Shown one piece after another: positions 6,109 to 23,410 of a stretch of 25,781 nt of DNA. The stretch covers positions 1 to 25,781 of the IMG/VR virus record IMGVR_UViG_3300042523_000040; one strand, 5' to 3'. A model generated the notes under the pieces. That model had not been told where the DNA came from and searched no databases. It worked only from the letters and a program-made list of their open reading frames with translations. The stretch comes from a virus. Position numbers and translations under genes: made by a program. Position 1 is the first letter of the stretch, and every line of letters begins with the position of its first letter.

Positions 6109-6717
6109 TTAGAGTCCTAGAAACGTTTTGAAGGACAAGGCTTCATGGAGGCCCATGCCACGGCGAACATCTTTATAGAGTTCGCTCTTATGCTTTGTGG
6201 ACATTGCACTAGGTGCCATCTTATGAAATTCTTTTTCGTTACCAGCGGCTGCATGTTGGCGCATCTTGGTACCAGAAGCGCCTGCTACACCTGTGTCAGC
6301 ATCCGAACGTTCTTTACCAACGGTATGAATGGTAATCTTCTTAAAGTTGTAGTGGCCGTGACGACCTTCTTTGCCATTATACTTATGCGCGAGAGCATGG
6401 AATTCATGTGCGCGGTCTGAACCAACGTGTAAGTGTAAGTGTGTAACACCTTCACTATGAAGTCTTGACATTTGGTGTAGGAGAGTGGGATGTTCTTTAT
6501 CTAGAAGACGAACATTGGCACCTGGAAATGCTCTCTTAGCATGTTTCAACTTCTGTTCAGGCGTCAAAGGATTCTTTTTAGAATCGTGTGTGCCAGTAAG
6601 AACGATGGTATGTCCGTGGGTACCAGCCGTGTTACGAACTTGGTTTACAACAGCTTCATGACCCACGGTGATTGGGTTCATTCTACCTTGTGTGATATGA
6701 TGATGAACGTCAGCCAT
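6109..6717 (-). CDS. Cytidylyltransferase-like nucleotidyltransferase with C-terminal tag
   Basis: The 202-residue protein shows the HIGH-superfamily signature: GRMNPITVGHEAVV (11-24), matching G(R/x)xNPxxxGH, and later GASGTKMR, matching the ISSTxxR-type nucleotide-binding motif. Such enzymes transfer NMP to small phosphorylated substrates (NMN adenylyltransferase, cytidylyltransferases); the substrate here is unknown. Shortened relatives occur among the structural genes of marine T4-like phages (memory). The protein is His- and Lys-rich. The last residues are LHE then ALSFKTFLGL; the SFKTFL part resembles the N-terminal tags of two other proteins in this window and follows an LxE site. ATG 6717 overlaps the upstream stop as TAATG. 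Nucleotidyltransferase fold: fairly sure; capsid packaging: inference. Confidence 0.75.
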   Translation of the reverse strand: MADVHHHITQGRMNPITVGHEAVVNQVRNTAGTHGHTIVLTGTHDSKKNPLTPEQKLKHAKRAFPGANVRLLDKEHPTLLHQMSRLHSEGVTHLHLHVGSDRAHEFHALAHKYNGKEGRHGHYNFKKITIHTVGKERSDADTGVAGASGTKMRQHAAAGNEKEFHKMAPSAMSTKHKSELYKDVRRGMGLHEALSFKTFLGL

Positions 6718-7850
6718 TATTTGCCCTTGCTTGCTCTTAGAATTGCACTGCGCTCTCGGTTAGCTTTCGAGAAGCCTTCGCGGTCAACAACCTTCAGACC
6801 ATGGGCGACATAACCTTCGCCGCCAGCGGCTGCACCATTAATATGCGTCGAGAACCCACCACCGGCGGCACGATCTAATCCTCTAGCAAGATGATTGGTC
6901 GCTTGTTGTAAATGGTGGTGAATTTGAAACGATCTTTGAAAGTGCTTTTTGCTGGCATCTACCTGCGATAGATGAGTATTCATAGTGGCAGTCTTGCGCT
7001 CTTTAGCAGCCGGAGTCTTGACGGCATCTATCAGTTTCTGGTGCGAAGTTTCTAAATGCTTCCTGTATCCTTCGACTGAAGGTTTTTCACCGCTTGTAAC
7101 AGTTCTATTGATATAAGTTCTTAGATGTATTTCATGACCAGGCAGATGCTGATACGAGTGACTTTTCATCAACTTTTCTGCCGCACTCAGATGCTCTTCT
7201 GCTTGGGACTTAACTGTAGAATGAAGTTTGCGCTCTTTGTCTGATACAAGATGTTGTACCATGTGAACATCAGGATGTGATTGAAAGTGCGACATGTCCG
7301 TGATAGGATGTGCGGTTCTTTCTGGACCCTTTAGCTCCGTATGTATAGTAACACTAACCTTGGATTTCTTTAGCTTCTTCGCTTCTTCGCTACCAGCATC
7401 CGCACGATATTCAATCGTATTTGGAGTATGCGAGATGTGTGAGGTGTATTCTGATCTTCCAGAAGGTTCGCTCATATATCCGCCCTGGTATTCACCGGGC
7501 TTTTTTGGAATTACTTTACCCAGGTGGGCATGAAGTGCTTTCAGAGGACCAACAAGATATGGTTTATGGCCATGTTGCTTTTCAATATCTGCGGCAGAAT
7601 AGTTGTAGTGAGAACCAGCACCCTTATACTTGACACCAATCTTACCATCAGGTGTTCGAATTACATGGAAAGACATTCTATCATCTATCTTACGAGTAGA
7701 TGGTGTTTTCCCACGTGCAACACCACGCAAAGTTTCCAATGCGTGGTGTGCAGCGTCTTGACTATCAAATGATCTATCAGAGGGATGCTCTATATGAGCA
7801 ATACCACCAGTGTGGGTCGCCTCAGTGATAAATTGTGTAAAGGATAACAT
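6717..7850 (-). CDS. DUF6267-like protein with T4-type capsid-targeting N-terminus
   Basis: I choose ATG 7850 (377 aa) over the longer frame because the protein then begins MLSFTQFITE/ATHTGG, very like the T4 internal-protein targeting sequence MKTYQEFIAE/A. The first 200 residues follow a family I recall as DUF6267: AHIEHPSDRSF (18-28), RKIDDRMSF (53-61), GKIGVKYKGAGSHYN (69-83), YQGGYM (121-126), then a SHTPNTIEY segment. Relatives usually have KWDG at the first site, like the covalent Lys motif of ligase-type nucleotidyltransferases; here it is KIDD (54-57). The C-terminal half is His-rich and helical. The gene has both a sigma70-like promoter and a perfect late box upstream. GAGATGAG precedes the start at a loose distance. 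I infer a packaged late protein; enzymatic activity is uncertain. Confidence 0.7.
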   Translation of the reverse strand: MLSFTQFITEATHTGGIAHIEHPSDRSFDSQDAAHHALETLRGVARGKTPSTRKIDDRMSFHVIRTPDGKIGVKYKGAGSHYNYSAADIEKQHGHKPYLVGPLKALHAHLGKVIPKKPGEYQGGYMSEPSGRSEYTSHISHTPNTIEYRADAGSEEAKKLKKSKVSVTIHTELKGPERTAHPITDMSHFQSHPDVHMVQHLVSDKERKLHSTVKSQAEEHLSAAEKLMKSHSYQHLPGHEIHLRTYINRTVTSGEKPSVEGYRKHLETSHQKLIDAVKTPAAKERKTATMNTHLSQVDASKKHFQRSFQIHHHLQQATNHLARGLDRAAGGGFSTHINGAAAGGEGYVAHGLKVVDREGFSKANRERSAILRASKGK

Positions 7851-7878
7851 AAGGGTCTCATCTCTATTGATTACCCTA

Positions 7879-7886
7879 TATTTATA
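7879..7886 (-). promoter_or_regulatory. T4-type late promoter box (TATAAATA)
   Basis: A perfect TATAAATA on the minus strand, ending 29 bases before ATG 7850. The predicted transcript would begin near an AGGGT/ACCCT inverted repeat (7853-7876) that sits just before the start codon and could shape the 5' end of the late mRNA. Confidence 0.7.
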
Positions 7887-7927
7887 ATACTTTCGAATCA
7901 CACTCTCTCTTTTCCATCTACTATTAT

Positions 7928-7955
7928 ATAGTAGCAGATTCTGAGGAAATGTCAA
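7928..7955 (-). promoter_or_regulatory. sigma70-type promoter (TTGACA-16-TACTAT)
   Basis: On the minus strand TTGACA (7950-7955) is followed after 16 bases by TACTAT (7928-7933), with a TATAAT overlapping just beyond. It starts at the end of the preceding gene and would read into the DUF6267-like gene. Confidence 0.55.
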
Positions 7956-7964
7956 GCGGTATTT

Positions 7965-8315
7965 TTATGCCAGTATAGCACTCAATTCTTCGGTAACATC
8001 CACTGCGGTAAGATCGATAGGAGGAAAATCGATTGCACCATTTAGATTGGCTTGGAATGTTTCAGAATTTGTAGGGGCTTCTGCAAAATAAATTTCAAAT
8101 CCAGCTACAGTTTCACGAACAAATGAATCGCCACCTTCAAACATGTGGGAAACTTTATCAAGTTCTTCATTAATCATTTCAAAGGTGGGTTCACCAGTAA
8201 AATACTTGACGATATATTCTTTTGCACCAACTGTCTTCCATAATGGAAGGTCAGCACTACCAACATTTGTCCATACAAATGAGGATACTACAAGTTTAAG
8301 ATTCAATTCGTCCAT
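7965..8315 (-). CDS. Hypothetical protein (116 aa)
   Basis: I do not recognise this protein. ATG 8315 has AGGA six bases upstream. The product is acidic, without signal peptide or membrane segment. It starts MDELNLKLVVSSFVWTNVG; YIVKYFTGEPTFEMINEEL (about 34-52) suggests mixed alpha/beta, and the C-terminus is acidic (PPIDLTAVDVTEELSAILA). It lies directly after tRNA-Arg and is probably on the same transcript from the sigma70 promoter at 8417. It separates the replication region from the late region. The reading frame is well supported by its ribosome site and packing; function unknown. Confidence 0.6.
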   Translation of the reverse strand: MDELNLKLVVSSFVWTNVGSADLPLWKTVGAKEYIVKYFTGEPTFEMINEELDKVSHMFEGGDSFVRETVAGFEIYFAEAPTNSETFQANLNGAIDFPPIDLTAVDVTEELSAILA

Positions 8316-8331
8316 ATTATTTCCTAAAAAC

Positions 8332-8408
8332 TGGTGCGCCGTGCAGGACTCGAACCTGCTGCCTCAAGATTAGAAGTCTCGCGCTCTATCCAGATGAGCT
8401 AACGGCGC
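8332..8408 (-). tRNA. tRNA-Arg (anticodon UCU), CCA encoded
   Basis: The minus strand folds into a complete cloverleaf. The 7-bp acceptor stem is GCGCCGT with ACGGCGC, perfectly paired. The D stem is GCTC/GAGC, the anticodon stem CGAGA/TCTTG with loop CTTCTAA, and the T stem GCAGG/CCTGC with loop TTCGAGT. The anticodon at the centre of the loop is TCT, so it reads AGA (Arg). Discriminator A is followed by an encoded CCA (8332-8334), as in many bacterial tRNAs. A sigma70 promoter ends just upstream, with a predicted start near 8410, so the tRNA is the first element of its transcript. Confidence 0.95.
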
Positions 8409-8416
8409 ATAACTAT

Positions 8417-8445
8417 TGTATACTACATTTATAACAGTTTGTCAA
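8417..8445 (-). promoter_or_regulatory. sigma70-type promoter of tRNA-Arg
   Basis: TTGACA (8440-8445), 17 bases, TATACA (8417-8422) on the minus strand. The start would fall at about 8410, two bases before the mature tRNA 5' end. The spacer also holds TATAAATG, one base from the late box. Confidence 0.7.
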
Positions 8446-8446
8446 G

Positions 8447-9838
8447 TTAAAACTCAAACTTTGAAAAATCTCTTCGCTTACCAATGGTAGTATTTTCAAA
8501 CACTGGAACATCGTCTTGCCCAGAGTCCATAATACCAGCCTGAGCATCATCTTCCAAGTCATACAGTTTCATCTTACCACGGTCGATACCAATCATGAAG
8601 CGTTTGTTCATACCTGGGTCGTTGTAACGATTCTTCAACTGCTTTATCATCAACTGGCCCATCTTGTCAAGTTCTTCTGTTGCGATAAGGGCAAACATCA
8701 AGTCAGCCGTAGCTGGTAGACCAAATGATTCTGAAGTATCTGTCAGTTCGACATCTGAATTGGCATAACCACTGCGGGTTGTCTGTGTAGCAGAAACGAT
8801 TGGCAAATCAAACTCTACTGCCAGACCACGAAGTTCTTCTGCGATACCCTTAATGACTGTGTAAGAATTGGCACCAGACGATGCTTTGTAGCGACTAGAT
8901 GCACAAATATTCAGATAGTCAATGAAGATAACATCTGGCTTGAAGTTCCGCTTCAACTGGAGTTCGTTCAACAGAGCCTTGAAATGGCCTACATGGGCGC
9001 TGGCGGTTGGATATTCTTTGACAATCAAACGACCTTCTGTCTTCGAACGAATCTTTGCAATGCGCTGGTCAAACATAGACTTAGATAGGTCTTTGAGTTC
9101 TTGAATGTTAACGTTCATCAAGTTGGCGTCAATACGTTCTGCGATACGTTCTTCTGCCATTTCAAGGGTGATATACAAAACGTTCTTGTTCTGACCCAAT
9201 GCACCAGCAGCCATGTGGCACATGAACAGAGACTTACCAACACCAGTACCAGCAAGAGCAATGTTCAATGTCTTATTTGGTAGACCACCATTGGTAATCT
9301 TGTTGAACATCTCGAGGTCAAACGGCAACTTAGTTTCTGCCCGGTGATAGAAATCAAAACGGTCTTCGGCGTTATCAATGTAGTCATGTCCTACGTTGTT
9401 ATCAAACCCAACTGCCAATGCATCTTGGAGAATGGAAGGAATACCATCTTGCGAATGTACCTTGTCTTCGCCATCAATGATTTGAATCGATTGCATAATG
9501 GCATTATACACCGCTCGGTCTTTGCAGAACTTTTCGGTCTGGTCTAGAAGCCACTTCTCATTGGCATCCACATCATCATCAAGTGCGGTTAGAGTTTCTG
9601 TAACGTGCTGATACTCTTTTTCATTTACCTTGCGGTCATTTTGTAGAGCAATGTTTATGGCATCGATGGTAGGAAGAGAATTATATTTGGTAACAAATTC
9701 GTTGATGTAACGATAGATTAACTTCTCGGCGTTGTCTGTAAAATATTCATCTTTAATGAATGGGATTACCTTACGCAGGTAATCCTCATCCGAAATCAAC
9801 TTACTTAGGATAATAGTTTCAATTTTCTTCTGCAACAT
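8447..9838 (-). CDS. 41: Replicative DNA helicase (T4 gp41 / DnaB family)
   Basis: A 463-residue hexameric 5'-3' helicase that unwinds the fork and, in T4, works with the gp61 primase. An N-terminal helical domain (about 1-150) is followed by a RecA-like core. Walker A is GTGVGKS (197-203), then ITLEMAEERIAERID (223-237). Walker B is VIFIDYLN (303-310), followed by TQTTRSGYAN and a C-terminal QLKNRYNDPG. Length is close to T4 gp41 (475 by memory). The start ATG 9838 has AGAGG six bases upstream, inside the 3' end of the zinc-ribbon gene, which it overlaps by 20 bases. It stands downstream of uvsX with one small gene between, as uvsX-40-41 in T4. Confidence 0.93.
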   Translation of the reverse strand: MLQKKIETIILSKLISDEDYLRKVIPFIKDEYFTDNAEKLIYRYINEFVTKYNSLPTIDAINIALQNDRKVNEKEYQHVTETLTALDDDVDANEKWLLDQTEKFCKDRAVYNAIMQSIQIIDGEDKVHSQDGIPSILQDALAVGFDNNVGHDYIDNAEDRFDFYHRAETKLPFDLEMFNKITNGGLPNKTLNIALAGTGVGKSLFMCHMAAGALGQNKNVLYITLEMAEERIAERIDANLMNVNIQELKDLSKSMFDQRIAKIRSKTEGRLIVKEYPTASAHVGHFKALLNELQLKRNFKPDVIFIDYLNICASSRYKASSGANSYTVIKGIAEELRGLAVEFDLPIVSATQTTRSGYANSDVELTDTSESFGLPATADLMFALIATEELDKMGQLMIKQLKNRYNDPGMNKRFMIGIDRGKMKLYDLEDDAQAGIMDSGQDDVPVFENTTIGKRRDFSKFEF

Positions 9839-10040
9839 TCACATCCTCTAGTTCAAAATATTCTTCATAATCATTAGCAATCTTCATACAACAATCTTCA
9901 CATACCCACTTCTCAAAAGTTAGGCCATGTTCTGAACCATGAAGACAGATTGCAGCATCTTTCTTAGGATTGATGCCGCAACCACATTCGTCACAGATTT
10001 TCGTATTCTTCTGAAACATCTTCGTCAAGAATTTCCACAT
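9819..10040 (-). CDS. Small zinc-ribbon-like protein between uvsX and gp41
   Basis: A 73-residue protein starting at ATG 10040, with GGAGG about six bases upstream; it overlaps the uvsX 3' end by 50 bases. It has a CDECGCG cluster near residue 18 and a CEDCC cluster near residue 49, a two-knuckle arrangement suggesting one bound zinc, and an acidic C-terminus (DYEEYFELEDVNVAEE). It occupies the place of T4 gene 40 but does not look like it. No family can be named; a zinc-binding regulatory or adaptor role is only a guess. Overlaps on both sides and the strong ribosome site support it as a real gene. Confidence 0.7.
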   Translation of the reverse strand: MWKFLTKMFQKNTKICDECGCGINPKKDAAICLHGSEHGLTFEKWVCEDCCMKIANDYEEYFELEDVNVAEEN

Positions 10041-11055
10041 TTTCACCCTCCATCATTTGTCCGCCTGCCATGCGGTATCGCTTTTCAATCCAATCACTGA
10101 ATGTTGGGTCGGTCAGAACTGGCATCCAGAATTCTTTGTTGTATGTATCATTCAGGCGATGCTTCTTTTCTTCTGTTGCCAACTGGTACCAACCATTCGA
10201 TGGCTTGATAACGTGGCCGCTTTCTAGTGCCATATCAAGTAGACCAGACCACTTACTGATACCACCTTGAAAGGTTACTTCGATTGGAATCTTTGACTTC
10301 TCACGAACATAACGAGACTTCTCGACGTTAATGATAAAGTTGTAACCAACTACTTCGGTGCCTTGCTTCTCTTGCTGGCGACCAATGATAAAGATATTAT
10401 CGGCTGAGTAGTAGATGCCCGTACCACCAGAGACGATTGCCTTGGGGAACATACCAATTTCCATATAAGTGTGATTGACCACGACCATAGGAATGTCTTT
10501 AATGGTAAGATGTGGTGTAATCATACGGAACAAGGACTTCATCTGCTTGGCGCGGGTCATATCTGCAACCGACTTACCATCTAGGGCATCATCAACTTCT
10601 TTCTTAGAAGCAAGGTTACCCACAGAGTCAACTACAATCATGACACGGTCCTTACGTTCAAGTTCATTAACTTGCTTCATAATATCATGTTTCAATTGTT
10701 CAATGTCAGTGATGGGAGTATGAACAACCTTACCTGTATCAATGCCAAAGTTCTCAAAGTATGACTGAGGAGCACCAAACTCGGAGTCGTAAAACAAAAC
10801 AATACCATCATCATACTTGTCCAAGAAACTCTTAACCAACATCATGGCGAATGCAGTCTTAAAGTGTTTAGATGGGCCAGCAAAGATGGTTAGCCCTGGT
10901 GTCAGACCACCATCTAGTTTACCAGAGAGAGCCACATTTAGTGCAGGAACAGAAGTCTGAATTAAATCTTTGGTACTAAAGAGTTTACTTTCTGATAATA
11001 CATTCGTTTCTTTGATAGTAGTATTCTTTTTCAGTTTGTCAAGTAGTGCGTTCAT
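9991..11055 (-). CDS. uvsX: UvsX RecA-like recombinase
   Basis: A 354-residue strand-exchange protein of the RecA/Rad51 fold, used in T4 for recombination-dependent replication and repair. Walker A is GPSKHFKT (60-67), the characteristic T4-type variant of GxxxxGKT with SK.FK. VLFYDSEFGAP follows, then a Walker B region MIVVDSVGNL and the loop segment VVNHTYMEIGMFPKAIVSGG. The C-terminus is acidic (EDVSEEYENL), typical of UvsX, which carries an acidic tail for partner contacts. Slightly shorter than T4 UvsX. ATG 11055 overlaps the gp43 stop (ATGA), with GGAGG ten bases upstream, so it is co-transcribed and coupled with the polymerase. Confidence 0.93.
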   Translation of the reverse strand: MNALLDKLKKNTTIKETNVLSESKLFSTKDLIQTSVPALNVALSGKLDGGLTPGLTIFAGPSKHFKTAFAMMLVKSFLDKYDDGIVLFYDSEFGAPQSYFENFGIDTGKVVHTPITDIEQLKHDIMKQVNELERKDRVMIVVDSVGNLASKKEVDDALDGKSVADMTRAKQMKSLFRMITPHLTIKDIPMVVVNHTYMEIGMFPKAIVSGGTGIYYSADNIFIIGRQQEKQGTEVVGYNFIINVEKSRYVREKSKIPIEVTFQGGISKWSGLLDMALESGHVIKPSNGWYQLATEEKKHRLNDTYNKEFWMPVLTDPTFSDWIEKRYRMAGGQMMEGENVEILDEDVSEEYENL

Positions 11056-13577
11056 GCGAATAGGTCCTCCAATGTTGCTTTAGGTTCAGTAGACCAGCCT
11101 AGACCGTCTACAATCATGTTAAGTGGGTCAAGAAATGCTTTCTGGAACATCATCTTATAATCTATATATCGGTGAATGTCAAGTTCTTTTGGCATTATTC
11201 CGAGAAAAGCAATACAATTTTCATGCATTGTATTAGGCTCTTTGAGATAAAGGAACTTAATCTTTTCACCCTCTTGTATTAATTCATACTTCTTGTCAAG
11301 GTTGGCTTTCTTGATCATATGGTTATACATCAGGGCACCGCGAACATGCATCGGTGTTCCCTTGCCATAAATATCAGCCGTAGATGTATACTTAGACAAC
11401 CCATTTACACCTCGTGGGAATGCAATCTCTTCAGGTGTCATCTTGTAGAAGGCTTCGCGGGTTTCTTCAATGAACTTCTGTAGAGTTGCTTCGTCGGAGG
11501 TCAGGCAGAGTCTGACGGCTTCTTTGAGGCTCTTGCGGACGGGCGCAGGCGTAGACGAGCGGACGATTTCGAGACCCATGACTTTGAGTTTTGGCTCATC
11601 GTAACGGACGCCTTCGTTGTCATAGACATTAAGTGCGTACCTCTTTTTTGCAACCCAGATGCCACGTTCCGCGATTGCCTCGCGTTTGAATATAATTTTC
11701 TTCTGAAATGCATTCGTGTAGTCCGCAAGTCCATCGCAACTCTTGTTGATCGCCTCTGTGATTTTCTCTTCGCAGATTTTATCGAGAACGCCAATGAGTT
11801 TGTCGCGGTCCATATCAGGATAAAACTTACTAACAAGAGGCTCCAGGGAAATATAACAAGAATCAGTATCACTGTAGAAAGAGTAGTTGTGTCCATTTGT
11901 TCCTACGACCTTGTTGAGATATGCGTCAAGTGCCTTACCTACTTCCTGAATAATATACTGACCAGTCATAGTGATGCCTTCAGCCACTCGGGCATCATAA
12001 TAACGGAAGTATTCATTACCCATGGCACCGAAGAGAGAGTTCAACTGAATCTTTCTTGCCATTTGAAAGTTGTTATACTTCGAAATGTTGTTCTTTAGTT
12101 TTTCGTCTTTAGTAAGTTCATATTCTTTCTGCGCGGCAATCATTAACTTCTTGTAGCGTTGACGGTCATCAAAGAACTTCTCTACGATTTCTGGAAACAG
12201 ACCTTGCTTAGTGCGATTATAGCAATACCCATTTGAAGTCATGCAATAATCATTGTCTTTTAGGTCATCAAGGTCAAAGGTCTTATCAAGAAGGCCGCGC
12301 ACGGTGGTGTCTTTGACATAACCATTTACCATGGTCTCAGGCGACATGTTATACTGCATAATGATTGACGGATACAGAGAGGTAGCATCGAAAGAAACTA
12401 CCCAGTCATACTTACCGGGCTTAGGTTCTTGAACATACGCACCTTCAATGCCGCGGCCCTGTTGGTCTCTCTTCTGAGGAATGTGAATGTTCTTATCATA
12501 CAGGTGATTATAGAGAAGGCAATCCCAGGTGCGAACCTGTGAGAAAACGTCATTGTAATTACACTTGGCGTCATAGGCCATCGTGAGGATAAGTTCAATC
12601 AACTTCAACTTACGTTCAAGTTCGTCCACAATTTCAACGTCTCGAACGTTGTATTCAACAAACTTCTGCCAGTCTTTAGTGTAAAACTCACGGAAACTTT
12701 CATAGGGATTTTCCAGCTTGTTCTTACCAAGTTCTACAGAAGCAATATGGTCTAGCTTGTAGGACTCTTGGTTAGAATACGTGAACTTCTTAAAGAGGTC
12801 CAGATAATCTAGAACGGCAATACCCTTCATTTCATAGGTAAACATTTCGCGACCCATGACGTTCATGTTCTTGCGCTGCACTAGACCCCAAGGAGAAAAC
12901 TTCTTCTTAGTGGCATTTTCATCATTGAACAGCCGCTCTACACGGGCAATCAAGTATGCAATATCGAAAAGTTCAACGTTCCAACCAGTGATGATATCTG
13001 GATGATTATCAGAATGAAAACGGACATAAGTTTCTAGCAGGTCACGTTCATTATCACACTTGACATACAGAAACTTGTTGCCAGTGGCACGAAGGGCTGC
13101 AATTTCTTCTGAGTTTACATCATCAAATTCACCGCAACCAAAGGTAATAATCTGGCGAGAGACTAGGTCCTTGACAGTGATGAGAAGTATCTCTTCAATC
13201 GGATTATTGATATCTGGAAAGCCAAACTCGGCTCTCGTTTCGATATCGATTGTCTGAATCTTTAGAGCATTCATATCCCATTGAATTTCACCAGGAAACT
13301 TATGCGTGATATACTGGTAGCCAAAGTTTGTCTGACCATAGATAGGAAAGTTATCTACTTCACCATAGGTTTGAATAAACTCTTTGGCGTCATTATTACT
13401 TTGAAACTCAACTGGCTGAAGATTGTCGCCATACAGAGACTTATGGACACCTTCTTCTTTGCTCTTCACATAGAGAACAGGAGAGAAGTCTTCCCTACGA
13501 TTGAAGCGCACACCATTATGAACACCTCGAACGAGAATCTTGGAGCCATATTGGTGTGCGCTGGTATAAAACTTCAT
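11052..13577 (-). CDS. 43: Family B DNA polymerase (T4 gp43)
   Basis: An 841-residue replicative polymerase with proofreading. Exonuclease motifs: IQTIDIETR (Exo I), ITGWNVELFDIAYLI (Exo II) and YNVRDVEIVDEL (Exo III), with the catalytic acids present. Polymerase motifs: SFDATSLYPSIIMQYN (motif A), KIQLNSLFGAMGNEYF (motif B) and YSDTDSCYI (motif C, catalytic DTD). It is somewhat shorter than T4 gp43 (898 by memory), close to the size in other marine T4-like phages. It works with the clamp gp45 and loader gp44/62 encoded upstream. ATG 13577 is preceded by AGAGGG, and that site can pair with a sequence about 45 bases upstream, hinting at translational control like the T4 gp43 operator (inference). 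Confidence 0.97.
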   Translation of the reverse strand: MKFYTSAHQYGSKILVRGVHNGVRFNRREDFSPVLYVKSKEEGVHKSLYGDNLQPVEFQSNNDAKEFIQTYGEVDNFPIYGQTNFGYQYITHKFPGEIQWDMNALKIQTIDIETRAEFGFPDINNPIEEILLITVKDLVSRQIITFGCGEFDDVNSEEIAALRATGNKFLYVKCDNERDLLETYVRFHSDNHPDIITGWNVELFDIAYLIARVERLFNDENATKKKFSPWGLVQRKNMNVMGREMFTYEMKGIAVLDYLDLFKKFTYSNQESYKLDHIASVELGKNKLENPYESFREFYTKDWQKFVEYNVRDVEIVDELERKLKLIELILTMAYDAKCNYNDVFSQVRTWDCLLYNHLYDKNIHIPQKRDQQGRGIEGAYVQEPKPGKYDWVVSFDATSLYPSIIMQYNMSPETMVNGYVKDTTVRGLLDKTFDLDDLKDNDYCMTSNGYCYNRTKQGLFPEIVEKFFDDRQRYKKLMIAAQKEYELTKDEKLKNNISKYNNFQMARKIQLNSLFGAMGNEYFRYYDARVAEGITMTGQYIIQEVGKALDAYLNKVVGTNGHNYSFYSDTDSCYISLEPLVSKFYPDMDRDKLIGVLDKICEEKITEAINKSCDGLADYTNAFQKKIIFKREAIAERGIWVAKKRYALNVYDNEGVRYDEPKLKVMGLEIVRSSTPAPVRKSLKEAVRLCLTSDEATLQKFIEETREAFYKMTPEEIAFPRGVNGLSKYTSTADIYGKGTPMHVRGALMYNHMIKKANLDKKYELIQEGEKIKFLYLKEPNTMHENCIAFLGIMPKELDIHRYIDYKMMFQKAFLDPLNMIVDGLGWSTEPKATLEDLFA

Positions 13578-13579
13578 GT

Positions 13580-16815: not shown

Positions 16816-16837
16816 TCTGGCTTAGTGACCAGTATTC

Positions 16838-16866
16838 ACTATATCAGTTGTTGCGCAACCAGTCAA
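16838..16866 (-). promoter_or_regulatory. sigma70-type promoter for gp44 (TTGACT-17-TATAGT)
   Basis: TTGACT (16861-16866), 17 bases, TATAGT (16838-16843) on the minus strand, at the very end of the peroxiredoxin gene. It would start gp44-gp62-regA transcription near 16831. Confidence 0.65.
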
Positions 16867-17428
16867 GAATATTTTCGGGTGAAGTTACACCATAAGGATC
16901 ATCCGCGCAGTTGTCCTCAACTACATCACCTTCAATGAACCACTTCTCAATCTGACCGTTATTCACCACAACAGCATATCGCCATGAACGTTCACCAAAG
17001 CCAAGATTGTCCTTCTGGACATTCATTCTCATCTTACGAGTGAACTTACCAGAACCATCAGGAATCATCTTAACCTTCTTGATCTTCTGATCTTTCGCCC
17101 AGCAATTCATGACAAAGGAATCATTGACAGATACACAGTAGATGTCCTTGATACCAAGTGCCTTAAACTCAGCAAAGTTCTTTTCGAAACCAGGTAACTG
17201 GTAGGTCGAACATGTTGGAGTAAAGGCACCAGGAAGAGAGAACAGAACTACACGTTTACCAGCGAAGTAATCATAGGTTGTCTTATCTTCCCAACGGAAT
17301 GGGTTAGGACCTTCAATCGAGTCATCGCGGACACGGGTCTTGAAGACTACTGCAGGAACAATCTCAGGTAGTTCCTGATCGCTGGCTTCATCGTCCCACT
17401 CCCGCTTAAATTTAAACTTCTCTGCCAT
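16844..17428 (-). CDS. Peroxiredoxin (Prx5/AhpC-TSA type)
   Basis: A 194-residue thiol peroxidase reducing H2O2 and organic peroxides. The active-site motif PGAFTPTC (66-73) is complete, with Cys73 as peroxidatic cysteine and Thr70 positioned to activate peroxide. It is followed by STYQLPGFEKNFAEFKALGI, the usual Prx5-type continuation, then VSVNDSFVMNCWAKD and FGERSWRYAVVVNNG, which supplies the conserved Arg of the active site. A second Cys in CWAKD could be resolving, but this is uncertain. No glutaredoxin domain is fused. ATG 17428 overlaps the 55-residue gene stop (TAATG). A peroxiredoxin inside a phage replication operon, between clamp and clamp loader, is unusual. The reductant would have to come from the host. 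Confidence 0.92.
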   Translation of the reverse strand: MAEKFKFKREWDDEASDQELPEIVPAVVFKTRVRDDSIEGPNPFRWEDKTTYDYFAGKRVVLFSLPGAFTPTCSTYQLPGFEKNFAEFKALGIKDIYCVSVNDSFVMNCWAKDQKIKKVKMIPDGSGKFTRKMRMNVQKDNLGFGERSWRYAVVVNNGQIEKWFIEGDVVEDNCADDPYGVTSPENILDWLRNN

Positions 17429-17595
17429 TATACCACAGCTACCTGCGCATCAAAGTCATTAAGAATGAGGAGCTTGTTAAACTGGCGAACAACTTCATCA
17501 AGGTCACTGGTGGTAAACGCAATGGTTACATCACGAGGGTCTTCTTCTGCATCATAAGGAATGCGGGCATTAAATGTGAATTCAAACTTAGTCAT
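17428..17595 (-). CDS. Small hypothetical protein (55 aa)
   Basis: This frame is short but well supported: ATG 17595 has a perfect AAGGAG seven bases upstream, and its stop overlaps the peroxiredoxin start as TAATG. It reads MTKFEFTFNARIPYDAEEDP, then RDVTIAFTTSDLDEVVRQFN, then KLLILNDFDAQVAVV. Pattern: an N-terminal strand, an acidic turn, a helix of about 15 residues (SDLDEVVRQFNKLLIL) and a final strand. No family recognised. Position between sliding clamp and peroxiredoxin suggests a replication-linked accessory protein, but nothing in the sequence proves that. Confidence 0.75.
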   Translation of the reverse strand: MTKFEFTFNARIPYDAEEDPRDVTIAFTTSDLDEVVRQFNKLLILNDFDAQVAVV

Positions 17596-17606
17596 ATTAT
17601 TTCTCC

Positions 17607-18266: not shown

Positions 18267-18272
18267 AATATA

Positions 18273-18785
18273 TTAACCTTTTTTCTTGTTGGTCTTATTA
18301 CCAGTATTTGTTATAACAGAAATTGTGTCGTTTGTCAAGAGAGAACTGGTGCCCATGTTGTAATTATTCCAGTCTGGAACAATAGTATCGTTAAGGTTTA
18401 GCGTAATAGTATCATAACCATTTGGATGAGCAGACAAAGTTGTAGTAGACAAGGCTGTAGCAAGAGCAGGTTTTAGGTTGACATCCTCGTAAAGTCCTGC
18501 TAGACTAGGCTGTTGTGCCTTATCATGAACATGCAATGCAATGATGGCATAGTGAATGACCTTCATGAGGTCCTTGCGCCAGTCTTCGGGAGTTCCCTTA
18601 TGACCGTATCGCTGGGCATACTTCATGATGTTTCCAACCGTGAAGCCTACACCATGTCCACCATCAATGATAAACTCGGTAGCTTGGTACTTGTTCTGCG
18701 AATAGTGCTGCCCATAAGTGGCATTCACATACTCGGTAACCTGCCGAAGCAGGTCACCTTCGTTATACTTATATTTAATTGTCAT
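18273..18785 (-). CDS. DUF3310-like phage protein
   Basis: A 170-residue protein from ATG 18785, with AAGGAG five bases upstream. The central part HYSQNKYQATEFIIDGG, then GFTVGNIMKYAQRYGHKG, then EDWRKDLMKVIHYAIIAL (about 22-90) follows the pattern I associate with DUF3310 (HYxxxxxxxxEFI...GFxxGNxxKYxxRxGxK...DLxKxxxYx), a short helical domain common in phage early genes and of unknown function. The C-terminal half is polar and Thr/Asn-rich, ends NTGNKTNKKKG and looks disordered. Its coding sequence contains the promoter of the sliding clamp. Confidence 0.65.
   Translation of the reverse strand: MTIKYKYNEGDLLRQVTEYVNATYGQHYSQNKYQATEFIIDGGHGVGFTVGNIMKYAQRYGHKGTPEDWRKDLMKVIHYAIIALHVHDKAQQPSLAGLYEDVNLKPALATALSTTTLSAHPNGYDTITLNLNDTIVPDWNNYNMGTSSLLTNDTISVITNTGNKTNKKKG
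18310..18338 (-). promoter_or_regulatory. sigma70-type promoter for gp45, inside the upstream gene
   Basis: TTGACA (18333-18338), 17 bases, TATAAC (18310-18315) on the minus strand, within the last 70 bases of the DUF3310-like gene. Predicted start near 18303, about 37 bases before the gp45 ATG. Confidence 0.65.
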
Positions 18786-18794
18786 ACTATCTCC

Positions 18795-19964
18795 TTAGAA
18801 AGGTGTTTCTTCAAAAAATGCGTCTTCATTGACGTTATCGGTAGGGCCAGTATCAATCTTGGCATCAACCTTGGTGTAGAGGTCGAGGAATGCTGACTTG
18901 GTATCAGCATCAAAGCGGTTAACGCAGAGTTCGACTGCCTTCTGGCGAGACTTGAACATGGCGAAGGCATTGACAATGTGTTCCAGACGGCGAGTCGAAA
19001 TCAGGTCGTCAATGCCACCATCGTAAAAAGTCTTACGGATGATTTCAGCCCAAGTAACAAGGTTGTCGGCGAATTCTTCATCAATCGCGCCAGCCTTTTC
19101 CATCTTGTTCATGACAATCTTCTTTTCGACCTTAGCCGATGGGTATTCTTGTTCGACTGTGATGGCGAAACGCTCAAGGAAGGCATCATCAAGAATCTGA
19201 GCCGAGATGAACTTGCCGTCATCGGAACCACGACCCTTGGTGTTAGCAGTTGCAACCACGTTGAAGCCCTTGGCGGGGAAGACAGTCTCGCCAGTCTTCT
19301 TATTGAAGTATGGCTTGCCTTCAAGAATGGCCTGGATGCACATCAACTTGTTCGAACCGCGGTCGATTTCATCAAGAATAAGAATTGCCCCACGCTTCAT
19401 GGCAGTCAGAACAGGACCTTCGCGGTACACTACGTTACCATCGACAAGGGTGTTGCCACCAATCAGGTCGTCTTCATCGGTTTCTACCGAGATGTTGACG
19501 CGGAGACATTCGCGCTTCAACTTGGCGCAAGCCTGTTCAATCATTGTGGTCTTACCGTTACCAGACAGGCCAGAGATGAACGTGGGATAGAAGGCTTCTG
19601 CCTTGAGAACCTTAATCAGGTCGGTGTAAAAGCCAAACGGAACGTAGGTCGCATCAAGACGGGGAACCAGATTGTCAATGATTACCTCTAGCTTAGGCTG
19701 CATCACCGTCTTAGCAACGGGCTTCGAGATAATCTCAGCAACTGGCTGAGGCATCACGGGTGCAGGCTTGGCAGTCACGCCAACCATTGCAGCAGACAAA
19801 TCGTAAACGCCACGAGAAACCACATTGTCCTTTGACAGGAGCCAGTTCAACTTCTCAATACCCATGGGGTGGGCGACGGCAAAAACATCTTTCTTGCGGA
19901 AAATACCACCATTCGTATCAGCGGCACGAAGGGCGGCAAGCAGGTCTTCACGGGTACTAATCAT
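18795..19964 (-). CDS. MoxR/CobS-type AAA+ ATPase
   Basis: A 389-residue AAA+ protein. The N-terminal 100 residues are a separate domain with a short DNA-binding-like helical start (MISTREDLLAALRAADTNGG) and a Pro/Lys-rich linker. Then Walker A GLSGNGKT (132-139), VETDEDDLIGGNTL (161-173), Walker B ILILDEID (194-201), sensor-type VVATANTKG and the arginine-finger region FLERFAI. ETDEDDLIGG and DEIDRGSNKLM are typical of the CobS/MoxR group, whose members work with VWA-domain partners; one is encoded immediately upstream. Phage copies are often named CobS, but cobalt insertion is not shown, and remodelling of a protein target is as likely. ATG 19964 has AAGGTGA upstream; a strong sigma70 promoter stands at 20011. 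Confidence 0.88.
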   Translation of the reverse strand: MISTREDLLAALRAADTNGGIFRKKDVFAVAHPMGIEKLNWLLSKDNVVSRGVYDLSAAMVGVTAKPAPVMPQPVAEIISKPVAKTVMQPKLEVIIDNLVPRLDATYVPFGFYTDLIKVLKAEAFYPTFISGLSGNGKTTMIEQACAKLKRECLRVNISVETDEDDLIGGNTLVDGNVVYREGPVLTAMKRGAILILDEIDRGSNKLMCIQAILEGKPYFNKKTGETVFPAKGFNVVATANTKGRGSDDGKFISAQILDDAFLERFAITVEQEYPSAKVEKKIVMNKMEKAGAIDEEFADNLVTWAEIIRKTFYDGGIDDLISTRRLEHIVNAFAMFKSRQKAVELCVNRFDADTKSAFLDLYTKVDAKIDTGPTDNVNEDAFFEETPF

Positions 19965-20010
19965 AATAAAATCACCTTTTCACAAACAAACATCATCAAT
20001 CACATTATTT

Positions 20011-20039
20011 ACTATAGTCGATTCGCGACCAAATGTCAA
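20011..20039 (-). promoter_or_regulatory. sigma70-type promoter of the CobS-like gene (TTGACA-17-TATAGT)
   Basis: A near-perfect promoter on the minus strand: TTGACA at 20034-20039, TATAGT at 20011-20016. It belongs to an exact 33-base repeat (20008-20040) with the promoter of the CobT-like gene at 22304-22336. The spacer holds CGAATCGA. Confidence 0.85.
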
Positions 20040-20046
20040 GTGTTTT

Positions 20047-22275
20047 TTACGCCACAGCCTCAACCATTTTTGTAAGAATTACACGACCAATAGATTTCTT
20101 ATCCTGAAACGCCTTGAACGCCTTGGTCAGTTCTTTCTTATCGTTGGAGTCCACAGTCAGAGTGTCTTCTGAAATTTGCAGACTACTGCCAGCTTTAATC
20201 AGAAACTGGTCATCAAAGCCGTTGCTGTCCTTGAGAAGTGCCGCACCTTCCTTCTTGAAAGCCTTGCGGGTCGCATCACTGACTGTGCCAGGGACGAGCG
20301 AACGAGCCAAGAAATACTTGAGGTCATAAGAACCCATCAGGTAAAAGTTAATCATCCGCGAACCAGTGGTTTCACGATACAGTTCAAGAAGAGCCTTACA
20401 GTAAGACCGGCTGCGGTAGCTAACACCGTCATATTGCTGCGAAAAGGTGCGACGAGTCTTAGAGTCAACAATAGCTAGGTTCTTACGGTGATAATCATTA
20501 TGATTATGACCAACAGTTTCGAAGTTGCAATCACCTTCACCATCGGTCAAGAATACCGACGAAAGAACTTCAACGCGATTGCGGTTCTTGAAATCTTCGG
20601 CGATGTAACGGCCAAGCAGAATGGCTTCTTCTAGCGGAGTGCTGCCAAGACCAAAAGAATTGGCAGCGGTACCGTCTAGATAAAGGTCATGATAGCTACG
20701 ATTATAAGACTGGCCAAGAGCAAGAATATTTGCCATCTGGGTCTTGAACTTACCACCAGAAACGCCGGTAGCCACCAACTGGAGCATACGGAAACTGGGG
20801 TCAGAAATCATCAGGTTGTTAGGGTCAGACAAGTTATTACGGCTGCGCACTGTATCGAAATACGTTTGTGGTGCGCTAGAGTTCGTAATGAAACCGTAAA
20901 CTTCAAACGGAATGCGAACTTTCTGGCAGAACGAAGCCAGTAGAACCAGCTGCTCCATGGTACCAGACATGTTGGAAGACATGCTGCCCGACATATCAAG
21001 GTACAGAAGCATGCCGTGGTTCTGACCGTTAGGAACAACCGTGTTCTGTAAGAACAGGTCTTCTGTAATCTTGTAAGCCCACACTTTGTCCATGTTGATG
21101 CGGCCAGTCTTGGAAGTCTGGGCGCGCATAAGCGACTTGGCTTTTTTCTTACGTTCAAAGTCCTGTGCCATTGAACTAAGGTACTTGCTGTTCTTGGCAA
21201 GAAACTCCTTGTAGAGTTCCATCTTGACTTGTTCGGCAGTCTTGCCTGCTCGGTATGCGGCGCCACCAACAGAGAACTTCAACATCTTTTCGACGGTGTT
21301 AATACCGACAATAAAATCAGCCGGGTTCAGAATAGGGAGCTTGGCATAAAACGTCTCACGGGCGTTTGCATCAAGCAGGCTGTCTTCATTCCGACGAAAG
21401 TTCTCATCGGTGAACGAAGTCGGCTCAGGGCTTTCTTCTGTATCATCGGACTCACTGTCACCAGACGAACCGTCTTCTTTCTCTTCTGACTTTTCTTCTG
21501 ACTTTTCTTCGGTATCATCGGACGATGAAGACTTAGGTTCTTCTGTTTCGTCTTCTGATTTCTGACCCGTAGAGGAAGGCGTCTGTGGCTTTTCCTTGTC
21601 ATCTGAGTTGTCCGAATTAGGAACTTCAACGTAGTCTGCACTCGGATCGAATTCACCGTCACCATCTTCCATGATATCACCAAGGGCGTTCATGAATTGT
21701 TCGAAGTCAAGTTCCTCGGTTGAATTTTCGGCACGTTCATAGAGTTCGCTAGCCAGCGCTACCACATCTTCCCAGGTGTCGAGGCTGTCAAGACGATTGA
21801 CAATCGCTTGTTCTTCGTCCGAGAACTTGACGTTCAAAAACGAACCGACCTTGGCGTGAAGGTTGATGCGGTCAATGAACTTTAGCTTATTGACATCCAT
21901 ACCTTCGACACCGAAGAAATTCTTTTCGAAGAGTTCTTGGTAACCATTGTAGAACGACCGACGAAGACCGGGGTAACGGTTCTTCATCTTGCGTTCGATA
22001 CGAGCATCTTCAATGATGTTGAGGAAAGACTTGAAGCCCACACCCTTCTCAGAGATGCTGGAGTGCCAGCCGTCAGCAGGCGTTTCAAGAGCGTGACCGA
22101 CTTCATGGCCGATTAGCAGGTCATAAAGGTCAGCCGAAGTCTCTTTGAAGATCGGCAGCACGACCGTGCGGGTCTCCAGATTGAAGTAAGCGGTACTTGT
22201 CTTCTGGTGTTCTACATGGATATTTTCTGTCGCCAACAACTTGGCGAGAATCGACTTTTCAGCAAACTGGGACAT
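20047..22275 (-). CDS. VWA-domain zinc metalloprotease-like protein (CobT-like partner of the AAA+ ATPase)
   Basis: ATG 22275 has GAGG seven bases upstream; a GTG one codon earlier is less likely. The 742-residue protein starts with a metallopeptidase-like domain: HEVGHAL (57-63), with IIEDARIERKMKNRYPG (87-103) likely giving the third zinc ligand. A very acidic Ser/Glu linker follows (about 215-290). A VWA domain has MIDAS motif DMSGS (427-431), with later VFLTDGEGD. CobT-type proteins share the acidic linker and VWA parts and act with CobS-type ATPases, and the ATPase gene follows directly. The HExxH domain makes an ATPase-driven protease or remodelling machine more plausible than cobalt chelation (inference). 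The target is unknown. Confidence 0.87.
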   Translation of the reverse strand: MSQFAEKSILAKLLATENIHVEHQKTSTAYFNLETRTVVLPIFKETSADLYDLLIGHEVGHALETPADGWHSSISEKGVGFKSFLNIIEDARIERKMKNRYPGLRRSFYNGYQELFEKNFFGVEGMDVNKLKFIDRINLHAKVGSFLNVKFSDEEQAIVNRLDSLDTWEDVVALASELYERAENSTEELDFEQFMNALGDIMEDGDGEFDPSADYVEVPNSDNSDDKEKPQTPSSTGQKSEDETEEPKSSSSDDTEEKSEEKSEEKEDGSSGDSESDDTEESPEPTSFTDENFRRNEDSLLDANARETFYAKLPILNPADFIVGINTVEKMLKFSVGGAAYRAGKTAEQVKMELYKEFLAKNSKYLSSMAQDFERKKKAKSLMRAQTSKTGRINMDKVWAYKITEDLFLQNTVVPNGQNHGMLLYLDMSGSMSSNMSGTMEQLVLLASFCQKVRIPFEVYGFITNSSAPQTYFDTVRSRNNLSDPNNLMISDPSFRMLQLVATGVSGGKFKTQMANILALGQSYNRSYHDLYLDGTAANSFGLGSTPLEEAILLGRYIAEDFKNRNRVEVLSSVFLTDGEGDCNFETVGHNHNDYHRKNLAIVDSKTRRTFSQQYDGVSYRSRSYCKALLELYRETTGSRMINFYLMGSYDLKYFLARSLVPGTVSDATRKAFKKEGAALLKDSNGFDDQFLIKAGSSLQISEDTLTVDSNDKKELTKAFKAFQDKKSIGRVILTKMVEAVA

Positions 22276-22306
22276 CACAAAACCTCATCAATCAATCATA
22301 TAATTT

Positions 22307-22335
22307 ACTATAGTCGATTCGCGACCAAATGTCAA
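22307..22335 (-). promoter_or_regulatory. sigma70-type promoter of the CobT-like gene (TTGACA-17-TATAGT)
   Basis: TTGACA at 22330-22335, TATAGT at 22307-22312, 17-base spacer, on the minus strand. Identical over 33 bases to the promoter at 20011, which places both partner genes under the same control. Confidence 0.85.
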
Positions 22336-22344
22336 GCGATTCTT

Positions 22345-22707
22345 TTAGAAACAACGGCGCTCACGGCGAATATATCGATTGCCGTAGTAGTCATATTCAG
22401 TAACTTCTGTGGTACGGCAGTTACGGTCGCGGCGATAATATGCATCACGGTTGCGATAGTGATATTCATACTCGCGGTCATAAACTTCGCGCTCAACTTC
22501 CTCGTCGCGGCTATTGTTGTTTTTAATAGCAGCACCAAGAATAAATGCGCCTAGACCGATAGCAATAGCTTCGCCGGTATTAATATGATTGCCGCGCTTG
22601 CGCTCGTGGCGTTCAGTGCGGTGTTCACCACGACCCTTGGCTTCTGCTACCACAGGAGTAGCAAGAACACTGACCGCAATAATACTAGAAATAACAGACT
22701 TAAACAT
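22345..22707 (-). CDS. Small exported Arg/Tyr-rich protein
   Basis: The start is ATG 22707 (MFKSVISSIIAVSVL), because AAGGAG lies seven bases before it and only one base before the ATG at 22713. The 120-residue product has a Sec signal peptide with likely cleavage in TPVVAEA/KG, a basic stretch (RGEHRTERHERKRGNH), a hydrophobic Gly-rich segment (GEAIAIGLGAFILGAAI) that could insert into a membrane like a glycine zipper, and a C-terminal half rich in Arg, Tyr and Glu (YDREYEYHYRNRDAYYRRDR). No family recognised; some bacterial periplasmic proteins look similar. It has its own sigma70 promoter. A periplasmic or envelope role such as superinfection control is possible but unproven. Confidence 0.7.
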   Translation of the reverse strand: MFKSVISSIIAVSVLATPVVAEAKGRGEHRTERHERKRGNHINTGEAIAIGLGAFILGAAIKNNNSRDEEVEREVYDREYEYHYRNRDAYYRRDRNCRTTEVTEYDYYGNRYIRRERRCF

Positions 22708-22728
22708 AATCATTCTCCTTATATTATT

Positions 22729-22756
22729 AGTATACACGAATCGATGGTAATGTCAA
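22729..22756 (-). promoter_or_regulatory. sigma70-type promoter of the exported-protein gene (TTGACA-16-TATACT)
   Basis: TTGACA at 22751-22756, TATACT at 22729-22734 on the minus strand. The spacer contains TCGATTCG, the reverse complement of the CGAATCGA found in three neighbouring promoters. Confidence 0.75.
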
Positions 22757-22757
22757 G

Positions 22758-23363
22758 TTAAAAACGTGTCATTGACCCATCGGCATGAGCCAAAAATGGC
22801 TCAAACTTAATGTTGGGATATTCATCTGCCAAATCTTTGAACATCTGGAGATTGGAAACAGCATCATCAAAGAGACGAGCGCGAGTAAATTTACCAGTAT
22901 CAAGGTATTGTTTAATAAAGATTTTCTTGGCTGGAGCAGACGGCATAGCGCCTAGATTGCCAGCACGGTGAACATGTATATCATCAATATCGATACCTTG
23001 TTGACGAAAGGTATCTAGAAAAATATCACGGTCATCAAAATCTGACCGAGCGGTAATGACAATCATCTTACTGCCACGGGCCTTAATATTTTTATGCATT
23101 GCAATCAATTTGCGAATCGCTTTAGCGATAGGTTCGCTGGTGTCACGAAAATGCCGGGCGTCCCTAAACTCGCTAAAGTCAAAGGATTCACCCGGCTGTA
23201 AATTATATGTATTGTATTGCTTGTTACCCAGTGTCTTGATTATCTTACCGCCTTTGACGATATGGACACGGGCTTTGGTACGGAACAATGTCTCGTCAAT
23301 ATCCCAGATAGTTAATCCGGCACTGTCTTGCGACTCACTTATAAACTCTTTAAAACCAATCAT
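22758..23363 (-). CDS. HAD-like phosphatase with T4-type capsid-targeting N-terminus
   Basis: A 201-residue HAD-fold protein. Motif I is DIDET (21-25, nucleophile D21, general acid D23), motif II VITARSD (102-108, T104) and motif IV FDDAVSN (165-171); a Lys in PAKKIFIK (144-151) can be motif III. It should act on a phosphate ester or anhydride; the substrate is unknown. The first residues MIGFKEFISE/S closely resemble the T4 capsid-targeting sequence MKTYQEFIAE/A. ATG 23363 has no ribosome site, and an in-frame TAG lies nine bases upstream of the ATG (12 bases counted from its start), so the start is forced. Both a sigma70 promoter and, further up, a perfect late box precede it. Late expression fits packaging. 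Confidence 0.82.
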   Translation of the reverse strand: MIGFKEFISESQDSAGLTIWDIDETLFRTKARVHIVKGGKIIKTLGNKQYNTYNLQPGESFDFSEFRDARHFRDTSEPIAKAIRKLIAMHKNIKARGSKMIVITARSDFDDRDIFLDTFRQQGIDIDDIHVHRAGNLGAMPSAPAKKIFIKQYLDTGKFTRARLFDDAVSNLQMFKDLADEYPNIKFEPFLAHADGSMTRF

Positions 23364-23369
23364 ATTTAT

Positions 23370-23398
23370 ATACTACTCGATTCGTGAGTGAATGTCAA
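23370..23398 (-). promoter_or_regulatory. sigma70-type promoter of the HAD gene (TTGACA-17-TAGTAT)
   Basis: TTGACA at 23393-23398, TAGTAT at 23370-23375, spacer with CGAATCGA, on the minus strand. The expected start lands at about 23363, the first base of the ATG, so the early transcript would be leaderless. A TATAAATA at 23363-23370 overlaps the ATG itself and cannot serve this gene as a late promoter. Confidence 0.65.
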
Positions 23399-23402
23399 GT
23401 AG

Positions 23403-23410
23403 TATTTATA
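23403..23410 (-). promoter_or_regulatory. Late box TATAAATA upstream of the HAD gene
   Basis: A perfect TATAAATA on the minus strand overlapping the ClpP stop codon, ending 40 bases before the HAD ATG. It would give a leader of roughly 30-35 bases, comparable to the late boxes at 5321 and 7879. Confidence 0.55.

Follow-up and report, generated by a model that had tools for sequence, protein, structure and literature searches.

The capsid-targeting sequence of the bacteriophage T4 internal proteins IPI, IPII and IPIII was reportedly described by Mullaney and Black in 1996. In the T4 genome (NC_000866), IPII and IPIII begin MKTYQEFIAE/A (the slash marks the cutting site) and IPI begins MKTFKEF. 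This ten-residue N-terminus has aromatic residues at positions 4 and 7, a hydrophobic one at position 8 and Glu at position 10 followed by a small residue, and ends in an LxE or IxE site of the gp21 prohead protease (PMC9026906, PMC5694885). Positions 4 and 7 matter mainly for targeting, and positions 8 and 10 for cutting (PMC9026906). The same review proposes that such a sequence may let T4-like phages generally take various proteins into their capsids, so that the general idea is already in print. The T4 ADP-ribosyltransferase Alt is also packaged in the head, loses propeptides at both ends to gp21 and is ejected at infection, and C-terminal processing is reported for Alt as well as for gp21 (PMC9026906). 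In phage P1, N-terminal residues of DarB suffice for a reporter to be taken up by the capsid (PMC9024508). Four cyanophages (S-SM1, S-CREM2, S-SZBM1 and S-SCSM1) have an enzyme annotated as NMNAT or cytidylyltransferase among their reported virion proteins, which the available text of the original articles explains as virion carriage or contamination, naming no tag (PMC3037559, PMC10665884, PMC9146016, PMC9602691). Here we describe terminal tags of the T4 kind on three proteins encoded by the IMG/VR virus record IMGVR_UViG_3300042523_000040, analysed over its whole 25,781 nucleotides (25.8 kb, hereafter the window): a DUF6267 protein, a HAD-superfamily phosphatase and a nucleotidyltransferase. 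The tag is real, conserved and widespread, and very probably it is a packaging tag like that of T4.

The DUF6267 protein (377 amino acids, minus strand, 6717..7850) and the HAD phosphatase (201 amino acids, minus strand, 22758..23363) carry the tag at the N-terminus, MLSFTQFITE followed by A (7821..7850) and MIGFKEFISE followed by S (23334..23363), with a gp21 cut predicted after E10 in each. Both fit M-x-x-F-x-x-F-[IL]-x-E in register with IPII and IPIII, and F4, F7, I8 and E10, the targeting and cutting positions in T4, are present in both. In the nucleotidyltransferase (202 amino acids, minus strand, 6109..6717) site and tag lie at the other end, where residues 190-202 (6112..6150) read LHE/ALSFKTFLGL; this terminus (GLHE/ALSFKTFLGL, ending at 6112) follows the pattern [LI]xE/x-x-S-F-K-x-F-L. 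Lacking the N-terminal position of the T4 tag, it is called here a C-terminal variant and kept outside that class. Reading frames and tag termini of all three genes are as the first-pass annotation had placed them. An in-frame stop lies three codons upstream of the HAD start (23363); in DUF6267 there is an in-window TTG 35 codons upstream of the tagged ATG (7850), but this ATG is the likely start because three relatives (L097, L106 and L112) have a stop four codons before it. Common descent of the two enzymes is rejected as the origin of the shared N-terminus, in agreement with the first-pass annotation, since their predicted models match different folds.

Within the window, we searched 29 genes picked by eye (leaving aside other overlapping open reading frames, ORFs, and the end-truncated 25416-25775) for a strict tag, defined as M, one or two residues, F or Y, two residues, F or Y, one of I, L, V, M or F, any residue and E. 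Counting either terminus, it is found on three of the 29, precisely the genes described above, and on none of the other 26, replication genes included. A looser expression, fixed earlier, also matches a membrane-protein-like ORF at 5859-6107 (MGKFLTYIKD), which is excluded from the count. Internal Met codons match the strict N-terminal tag in 2 of 1591 cases in two cyanophage proteomes and in none of 194 in the 29 window genes; at the cyanophage rate, the chance of two or more such tags among 29 genes is P = 6e-4.

The tag is conserved in relatives of all three proteins. The scan for HAD orthologues had itself used MIGFKEFI, and for this reason the count is limited to the 57 loci that hold another scan peptide; all 57, comprising 20 distinct bodies, keep the tag (75 of 78 loci were used, L030, L056 and L057 being truncated, and the 18 of the 75 found through MIGFKEFI alone, nine tagged and nine untagged, were set aside). 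DUF6267 orthologues were fetched with body peptides only, and 64 of 79 carry the strict tag (one further locus, L134, is truncated). Among the remaining 15, six have L for F4, in seven the run is longer, e.g., MQRFRLFVESFLSE/A (the start is visible in some of these only), and two read MITFSKLRSMLTEE. In these regex-selected tags, positions 3, 6 and 9 vary in HAD, where positions 2 and 5 are invariant too, and positions 5, 6 and 9 vary in DUF6267, together with the length of the spacer behind the tag. The position entropies were computed on sequences selected in the same way, so that conservation at positions 4, 7, 8 and 10 is partly by construction. As for the C-terminal form, it ends the ORF downstream of DUF6267 in 62 of 74 cases and is one residue off in three more, being absent from six proteins of 415 to 942 amino acids and three ORFs of 261-264. 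Across 32 distinct C-terminal tails, picked by regex, the E is present in all and each of the two F positions is F in 29. A narrow search for this form gave 16 stretches, of which 15 fall in the transferase family of the window, so that it is established for this family only; the corresponding regex has no match in S-CREM2 and two in S-SZBM1, one of them gp21. The C-terminal tag resembles the C-terminus of the gp21 protease (LEEAKIQIFERFLRHL in the window lineage and LEERKISAFHEFLQSL in S-SZBM1), a likeness that the first-pass annotation had missed. Two other proteins may be mentioned here: the virion-flagged SSCSM1_93 (L570 1626-1835, 69 amino acids) ends RTFKEFLEYIE, which may be a C-terminal tag on a protein that is not of the transferase family, and the Cas9-like nuclease gp12 of S-CREM2 (L556 7704-10313), detected in virions, is tag-like at both ends, with LRFASFMAE/A near the N-terminus and KTFRDFLN at the end.

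A census of environmental sequences indicates how widespread the N-terminal tag is. DNA encoding M-x-x-F-K-E-F-[ILMF]-x-E was found in at least 119 IMG/VR stretches. Of the 121 matches listed, 77 open an ORF at its first start, 36 have an alternative start no more than 40 codons upstream, 6 are internal and 2 fall in short frames; that is, 113 of 121 are at or near a start, compared with 37 of 119 listed in bacterial and archaeal (GTDB) genomes, where first starts account for 23 and near-start positions for 14, the rest being internal (46), in short frames (34) or cut (2). Moreover, 15 of these 37 share one membrane-protein-like beginning, MRKFKEF, and one (L620) looks like a phage DUF6267 protein. 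The permuted motif M-x-x-E-F-K-F-[ILMF]-x-E, which has the same composition, gave 13 stretches in total, five of them at or near a start, including one in a 12-residue frame. When the motif is one residue shorter (register -1) the listed matches divide into 70 at the first start, 34 near, 8 internal, 7 short and 2 cut (n = 121), and when one residue longer (register +1) into 37, 13, 59, 7 and 4 in the same order (n = 120). The longer register is not a clean null, because it holds real-looking tags, e.g., on DUF5824 proteins; the permuted motif is. The 250 tagged ORFs listed (at least 50 amino acids, first 12 residues removed) group by single linkage into 100 families, of which 79 include at least one ORF in register 0 or -1 and 21 are seen in register +1 only; shorter ORFs were dropped from this count, and the +1 list used here and for the T4-core comparison below is L445-L555. 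Pfam searches on 20 tagged ORFs identified DUF6267 (alone or fused to a CTP transferase), NT5C, ART-PolyVal, DUF5824, DUF6321 and a CTP transferase fused to a Zeta-toxin/AAA kinase (L369 9065-11314 and L398 158-2122), with HAD IIIB and HD below the curated cut-off and eight of the 20 without any match. Three tagged ORFs (MKTFLDFLKEE, MFKFKQYIEEA and MKTFKEFLSEE) lie close together in L180 (G002:35937-38275), some kb from the DUF6267 gene of this 197 kb relative, and may form a cargo island.

Published virion proteomes of cyanophages allow the tag to be set against actual packaging. In S-CREM2, for which 52 virion proteins with coordinates are available (Table 3, PMC10665884), the strict tag occurs on 4 of 219 coding sequences (CDS), and all four are in the virion list: a SAM hydrolase (MKDFDSFLEE), an APH-like kinase (MKRFDAFLTE), a cytidylyltransferase (MKNFSSFLTEA) and gp136 (MQTFSMFFSED). 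S-SZBM1 has it on 3 of 218, one of which, the cytidylyltransferase MRFRQFIIEA, is among its 30 virion proteins (Table 1, PMC9146016), and S-SCSM1 has two annotated CDS with the tag, of which the NMNAT (MKSFLQFLKEA) bears a virion flag (48 of 282 flags counted by eye from the record; the paper, PMC9602691, gives 45). Pooling the three phages, 6 of 9 strict-tagged proteins are in virions versus 1.7 expected (permutation p = 0.002), with an expression composed after the virion N-termini had been seen, and because of this the test was repeated with the earlier ones, giving 4 of 7 (p = 0.027) and, with the shorter register added, 5 of 8 (p = 0.0065). The six include the nucleotidyltransferase of each phage. 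Similarly, the sole strict-tagged annotated CDS of S-SM1 is the cytidyltransferase GC190 (MKKFSAFLNEA), reported in the virion of this phage among 41 proteins (PMC3037559). For S-SCSM1 and S-SM1 an ORF scan was matched by eye to the annotation; an unannotated ORF was dropped from either phage (42 and 35 amino acids), as was one internal start. The transferases of all four cyanophages, by annotation of the same enzyme superfamily as the window protein, are reported in virions and have the tag at their N-terminus, which in S-SZBM1 is of the shorter register (PMC3037559, PMC10665884, PMC9146016, PMC9602691). They differ from the window lineage in carrying it N-terminally. This N-terminal arrangement is also found in S-WAM1 and S-RIM4, as in S-SZBM1 (homology by annotation, with a tblastn match for S-SZBM1 and S-RIM4); the transferase of DLP6 is without a strict tag and that of Melnitz has a near-tag.

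The protease expected to cut such tags is encoded in the same genome. A 117 kb record (G004) contains the window at 25,780 of 25,781 bases, with a single mismatch, and encodes a gp21-type prohead protease (Peptidase_S77) at 35597-36046; there is none within the 25.8 kb window itself. Peptidase_S77 was found in 10 of the 17 records searched, the window being one of the 17, and in all six of more than 100 kb. Judged by eye and from their positions, the surrounding genes include portal, gp22-like and gp23-like ones, and the gp23 N-terminal regions of six such genomes have LxE followed by A, D or T (by eye). The window itself has the gene set of a T4-like phage, with clamp loader subunit A (Pfam) and, from reading the ORF list, a helicase, a RecA-like recombinase, a polymerase, RegA, gp44 and gp45. 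In the wider census, gp21 was over the cut-off in 12 of 46 register-0 records (part of the 112 start loci, comprising the listed contigs of more than 40 kb and most of L287-L325), in 9 of 35 mixed records of registers -1, +1 and the permuted motif, tagged and untagged, and in 7 of the 9 register-0 contigs of at least 60 kb that were examined; these counts lend light support. The 202 kb record behind L309 (G047) has a register-0 tagged ORF and no Peptidase_S77 match. We discarded tblastn matches to T4 core genes as proof of kinship, since they are found for 87 of 112 start loci in register 0 and 43 of 102 in register -1, but also for 39 of 66 register +1 loci that are not at a start. The gene just upstream of gp21 in L173 (G001:67855-68313) and L187 (G002:177672-178514), at the position of T4 core genes 67/68, begins with a near-tag, MKTYKQLQERI or MMRFQDFRQNLVEAA, which raises the possibility that core proteins themselves use a similar signal.

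We consider it highly likely that these tags are T4-type capsid-targeting sequences cut by gp21, serving to pack enzymes with the DNA for delivery at infection. As the head is assembled, the enzyme would be docked to the prohead core through the F-x-x-F-[IL] part of its tag, a gp21-type protease would cut after the Glu and leave the mature enzyme free inside the head, and the enzyme, packed with the DNA, would be delivered into the next cell. In DUF6267 and HAD the tag precedes the site and in the transferase the site precedes the tag, so the cut would remove the tag from all three. For this phage we infer the packaging, the docking partner, the cutting and the injection, as well as the action of the cargo on RNA or DNA ends. 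Capsid targeting, as put forward in the first-pass annotation, is well supported by the match in register and residues with IPII and IPIII, by the gp21-type protease in the same genome and by the over-representation of tagged proteins in the virions of other phages; the injection that it proposed would be the further step.

Several observations weigh against this interpretation. The virion evidence comes from other phages and other proteins, and the strict expression, as said, was chosen late. With the looser one, S-CREM2 gains gp13 (virion), gp30 and gp175 (both non-virion), giving five of seven, and S-SZBM1 has one of four in virions; taken alone, S-SZBM1 has no virion enrichment of tagged proteins (p = 0.36). 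Three of the nine pooled proteins (105, 106 and 165 amino acids) are outside the virion lists, and the authors of a cyanophage virion study caution that caesium chloride fractions may hold contaminating enzymes. Motif-bearing contigs without detected gp21 include two of the nine of at least 60 kb and many in registers -1 and +1. For a C-terminal targeting signal, no direct experimental precedent was found in the available phage packaging literature. Finally, homologues that keep the enzyme and lack the tag, which the first-pass annotation had regarded as damaging to its own proposal, do exist in part: a HAD clade at 48-50% identity (L062-L070) has no tag on HAD, and DUF6267-type proteins are untagged in S-WAM1, S-PM2, S-RIM4, XG4 and S-SZBM1, being tagged in C48C1, Melnitz and DLP6 (identified by Pfam for S-SZBM1, by tblastn for S-WAM1, S-PM2 and XG4 and by likeness for the others). 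In the nine contigs of the untagged HAD clade, MIGFKEFITE stands instead on a 97-residue ORF that is DUF6321-like (by likeness), and the untagged DUF6267 protein of S-SZBM1 (S-SZBM1_141) is absent from the published virion table of that phage, both of which fit a movable tag. In three of the phages with untagged DUF6267 (S-WAM1, S-RIM4 and S-SZBM1) the tag is on the transferase next to it; if the two formed one complex, a single tag would be enough.

There are other ways of reading the same data. Once inside the prohead, tagged proteins could contribute to its construction or be degraded, and never be delivered as working enzymes, as might be thought from the identity of tag and site with those of T4 core proteins, from the similar C-terminal segment of gp21 itself and from the effect of IPIII on T4 head assembly (PMC9026906). 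We hold this to be improbable, given that the catalytic-type residues of HAD are invariant, that the cargo includes enzyme domains (NT5C, ART-PolyVal and Zeta/AAA kinases) and that peptides of tagged enzymes are reported from purified virions. Still less probable is that the N-terminal segment docks to some other phage structure, e.g., a replication or membrane site, with virion presence being secondary. The virion data cover a minority of the tagged families, and some motif-bearing contigs show no gp21, but register, residues and LxE or IxE site are those of the T4 sequence, the replication genes of the window carry no strict tag and tagged proteins are enriched in virions. Mere chance or compositional likeness of a short hydrophobic N-terminus has next to nothing in its favour: the tag is only ten residues long, and bacterial and archaeal matches at or near starts do occur, a good part of them with the one MRKFKEF beginning, but orthologue conservation and the census, permuted, GTDB and window controls all contradict it.

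Compared with the known systems, delivery of tagged enzymes at infection would extend the T4 pattern in several respects. The cargo here is enzyme-like, and across environmental phages tagged cargo is far more varied than the small internal proteins; the one-residue-shorter version is common in these phages, and the transferase tag is C-terminal. No homology of Alt to the window proteins was seen, although no search was aimed at it, and an ART-PolyVal domain stands behind a tag in L263. The Dar proteins of P1 differ in having no sequence consensus among them (PMC9024508). An environmental census of the tag, its link to cyanophage virion enzymes and the C-terminal form were not found in the open-access literature searched (subscription papers and preprints lay outside the search); there, one tag string of six occurs, in a non-phage paper, and "capsid targeting" and "cyanophage" appear together in the T4 review only.

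What the three enzymes may do can be partly guessed. DUF6267 is assigned by Pfam (PF19782, 1.9e-34, 120 bits against a cut-off of 27). Its AlphaFold model has a mean confidence (predicted local distance difference test, pLDDT) of 86.5, with residues 1-18, tag included, below 50 and thus disordered. When this model was compared by VIA, with 991 chains re-aligned, the top 50 rows were all RNA or DNA polynucleotide ligases, at Z 8.4 to 6.1 (Naegleria RNA ligase 8.4, T4 Rnl1 7.0, T4 Rnl2 6.5), values to be read with the warning of the tool that a Z of 7 to 8 is often reached. Foldseek matches were weak (best E 0.25), sequence profiles found no ligase and hhalign gave no real match to T4 RnlB. Polynucleotide ligases have their lysine in motif I, KxDG, and motif IV reads EGxV. 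In 16 DUF6267 sequences K54-I-D-D is invariant, as are E345-G and V348 in E345-G-[YF]-V, which may correspond to motifs I and IV, D replacing the usual G of motif I. Given the weak Foldseek matches, the empty profiles and the commonness of Z near 8, a polynucleotide-ligase-like nucleotidyltransferase fold, which DUF6267 may have, is best treated as a lead.

The HAD protein is of class B acid phosphatase or T4 Pnkp type, from PF03767 (2.4e-4, below cut-off), phrog_415 polynucleotide kinase (8e-12) and Foldseek matches to AphA (1e-4) and T4 Pnkp (3e-3); the tag is again disordered in the model (residues 1-12, pLDDT below 50). D21, D23, T25, K146, D166 and D167 are invariant in 20 sequences, of which D21/D23/T25 and D166/D167 are the DxDxT nucleophile and DD motifs of HAD phosphatases. 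By tblastn against isolated phages the window HAD had no match, and a second tagged HAD one weak record. The cytidyltransferase-like nucleotidyltransferase contains a GRMNPxTxGH stretch, which we take as an HxGH-type signature; it matches phrog_3041 (3.2e-48), phrog_395 (cytidyltransferase) and, below cut-off, PF01467 (0.0028), has tblastn matches in 515 phage records and is 37.9% identical to S-SZBM1_140. Sequence searches of the PDB gave nothing significant for any of the three.

Elsewhere in the window, a DUF6321 protein of 752 amino acids without a terminal tag (minus strand, 3030..5288; PF19846, 8e-13) is possibly a further head protein, as DUF6321 also occurs in the virion proteins S-CREM2 gp137 and SSCSM1_29 and in the tagged ORF of L553. 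By likeness it is found too in tagged ORFs of L290, L062-L070 and G006:85827-86114. The window also encodes a ferritin/Dps-like protein (2591-3028, Pfam), a peroxiredoxin (16844-17428) and, at 18795-22278, an AAA ATPase together with a large neighbouring protein that resembles, by eye, a VWA partner.

The tag is N-terminal on cyanophage transferases and C-terminal here, and MIGFKEFI sits on HAD or on a DUF6321-like protein depending on the clade. Such shifts between ends and genes suggest a modular sorting signal. A bolder and rather doubtful proposal is that a single movable tag, working at either terminus, amounts to a general protein-injection system of marine and lake T4-like phages, whose cargo would be a ready-made kit of enzymes for repairing or modifying the ends of RNA or DNA as infection begins, e.g., after cleavage by a host anticodon nuclease. 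The ligase-like DUF6267, the HxGH nucleotidyltransferase and the polynucleotide-phosphatase-like HAD would be members of such a kit, with Zeta/AAA kinase and ADP-ribosyltransferase elsewhere. What we have found suggests that environmental phages with tagged proteins load enzymes into the head along with their DNA and bring them into the cell at infection. This offers a reason for the recurrent enzymes of cyanophage virions, which could not be told apart from contamination in the original studies, and opens many phage genes of unknown function to testing as injected proteins. It would turn an observation made in T4 into a readable code, by which the proteins probably packed and injected by a T4-like phage can be listed from sequence alone.

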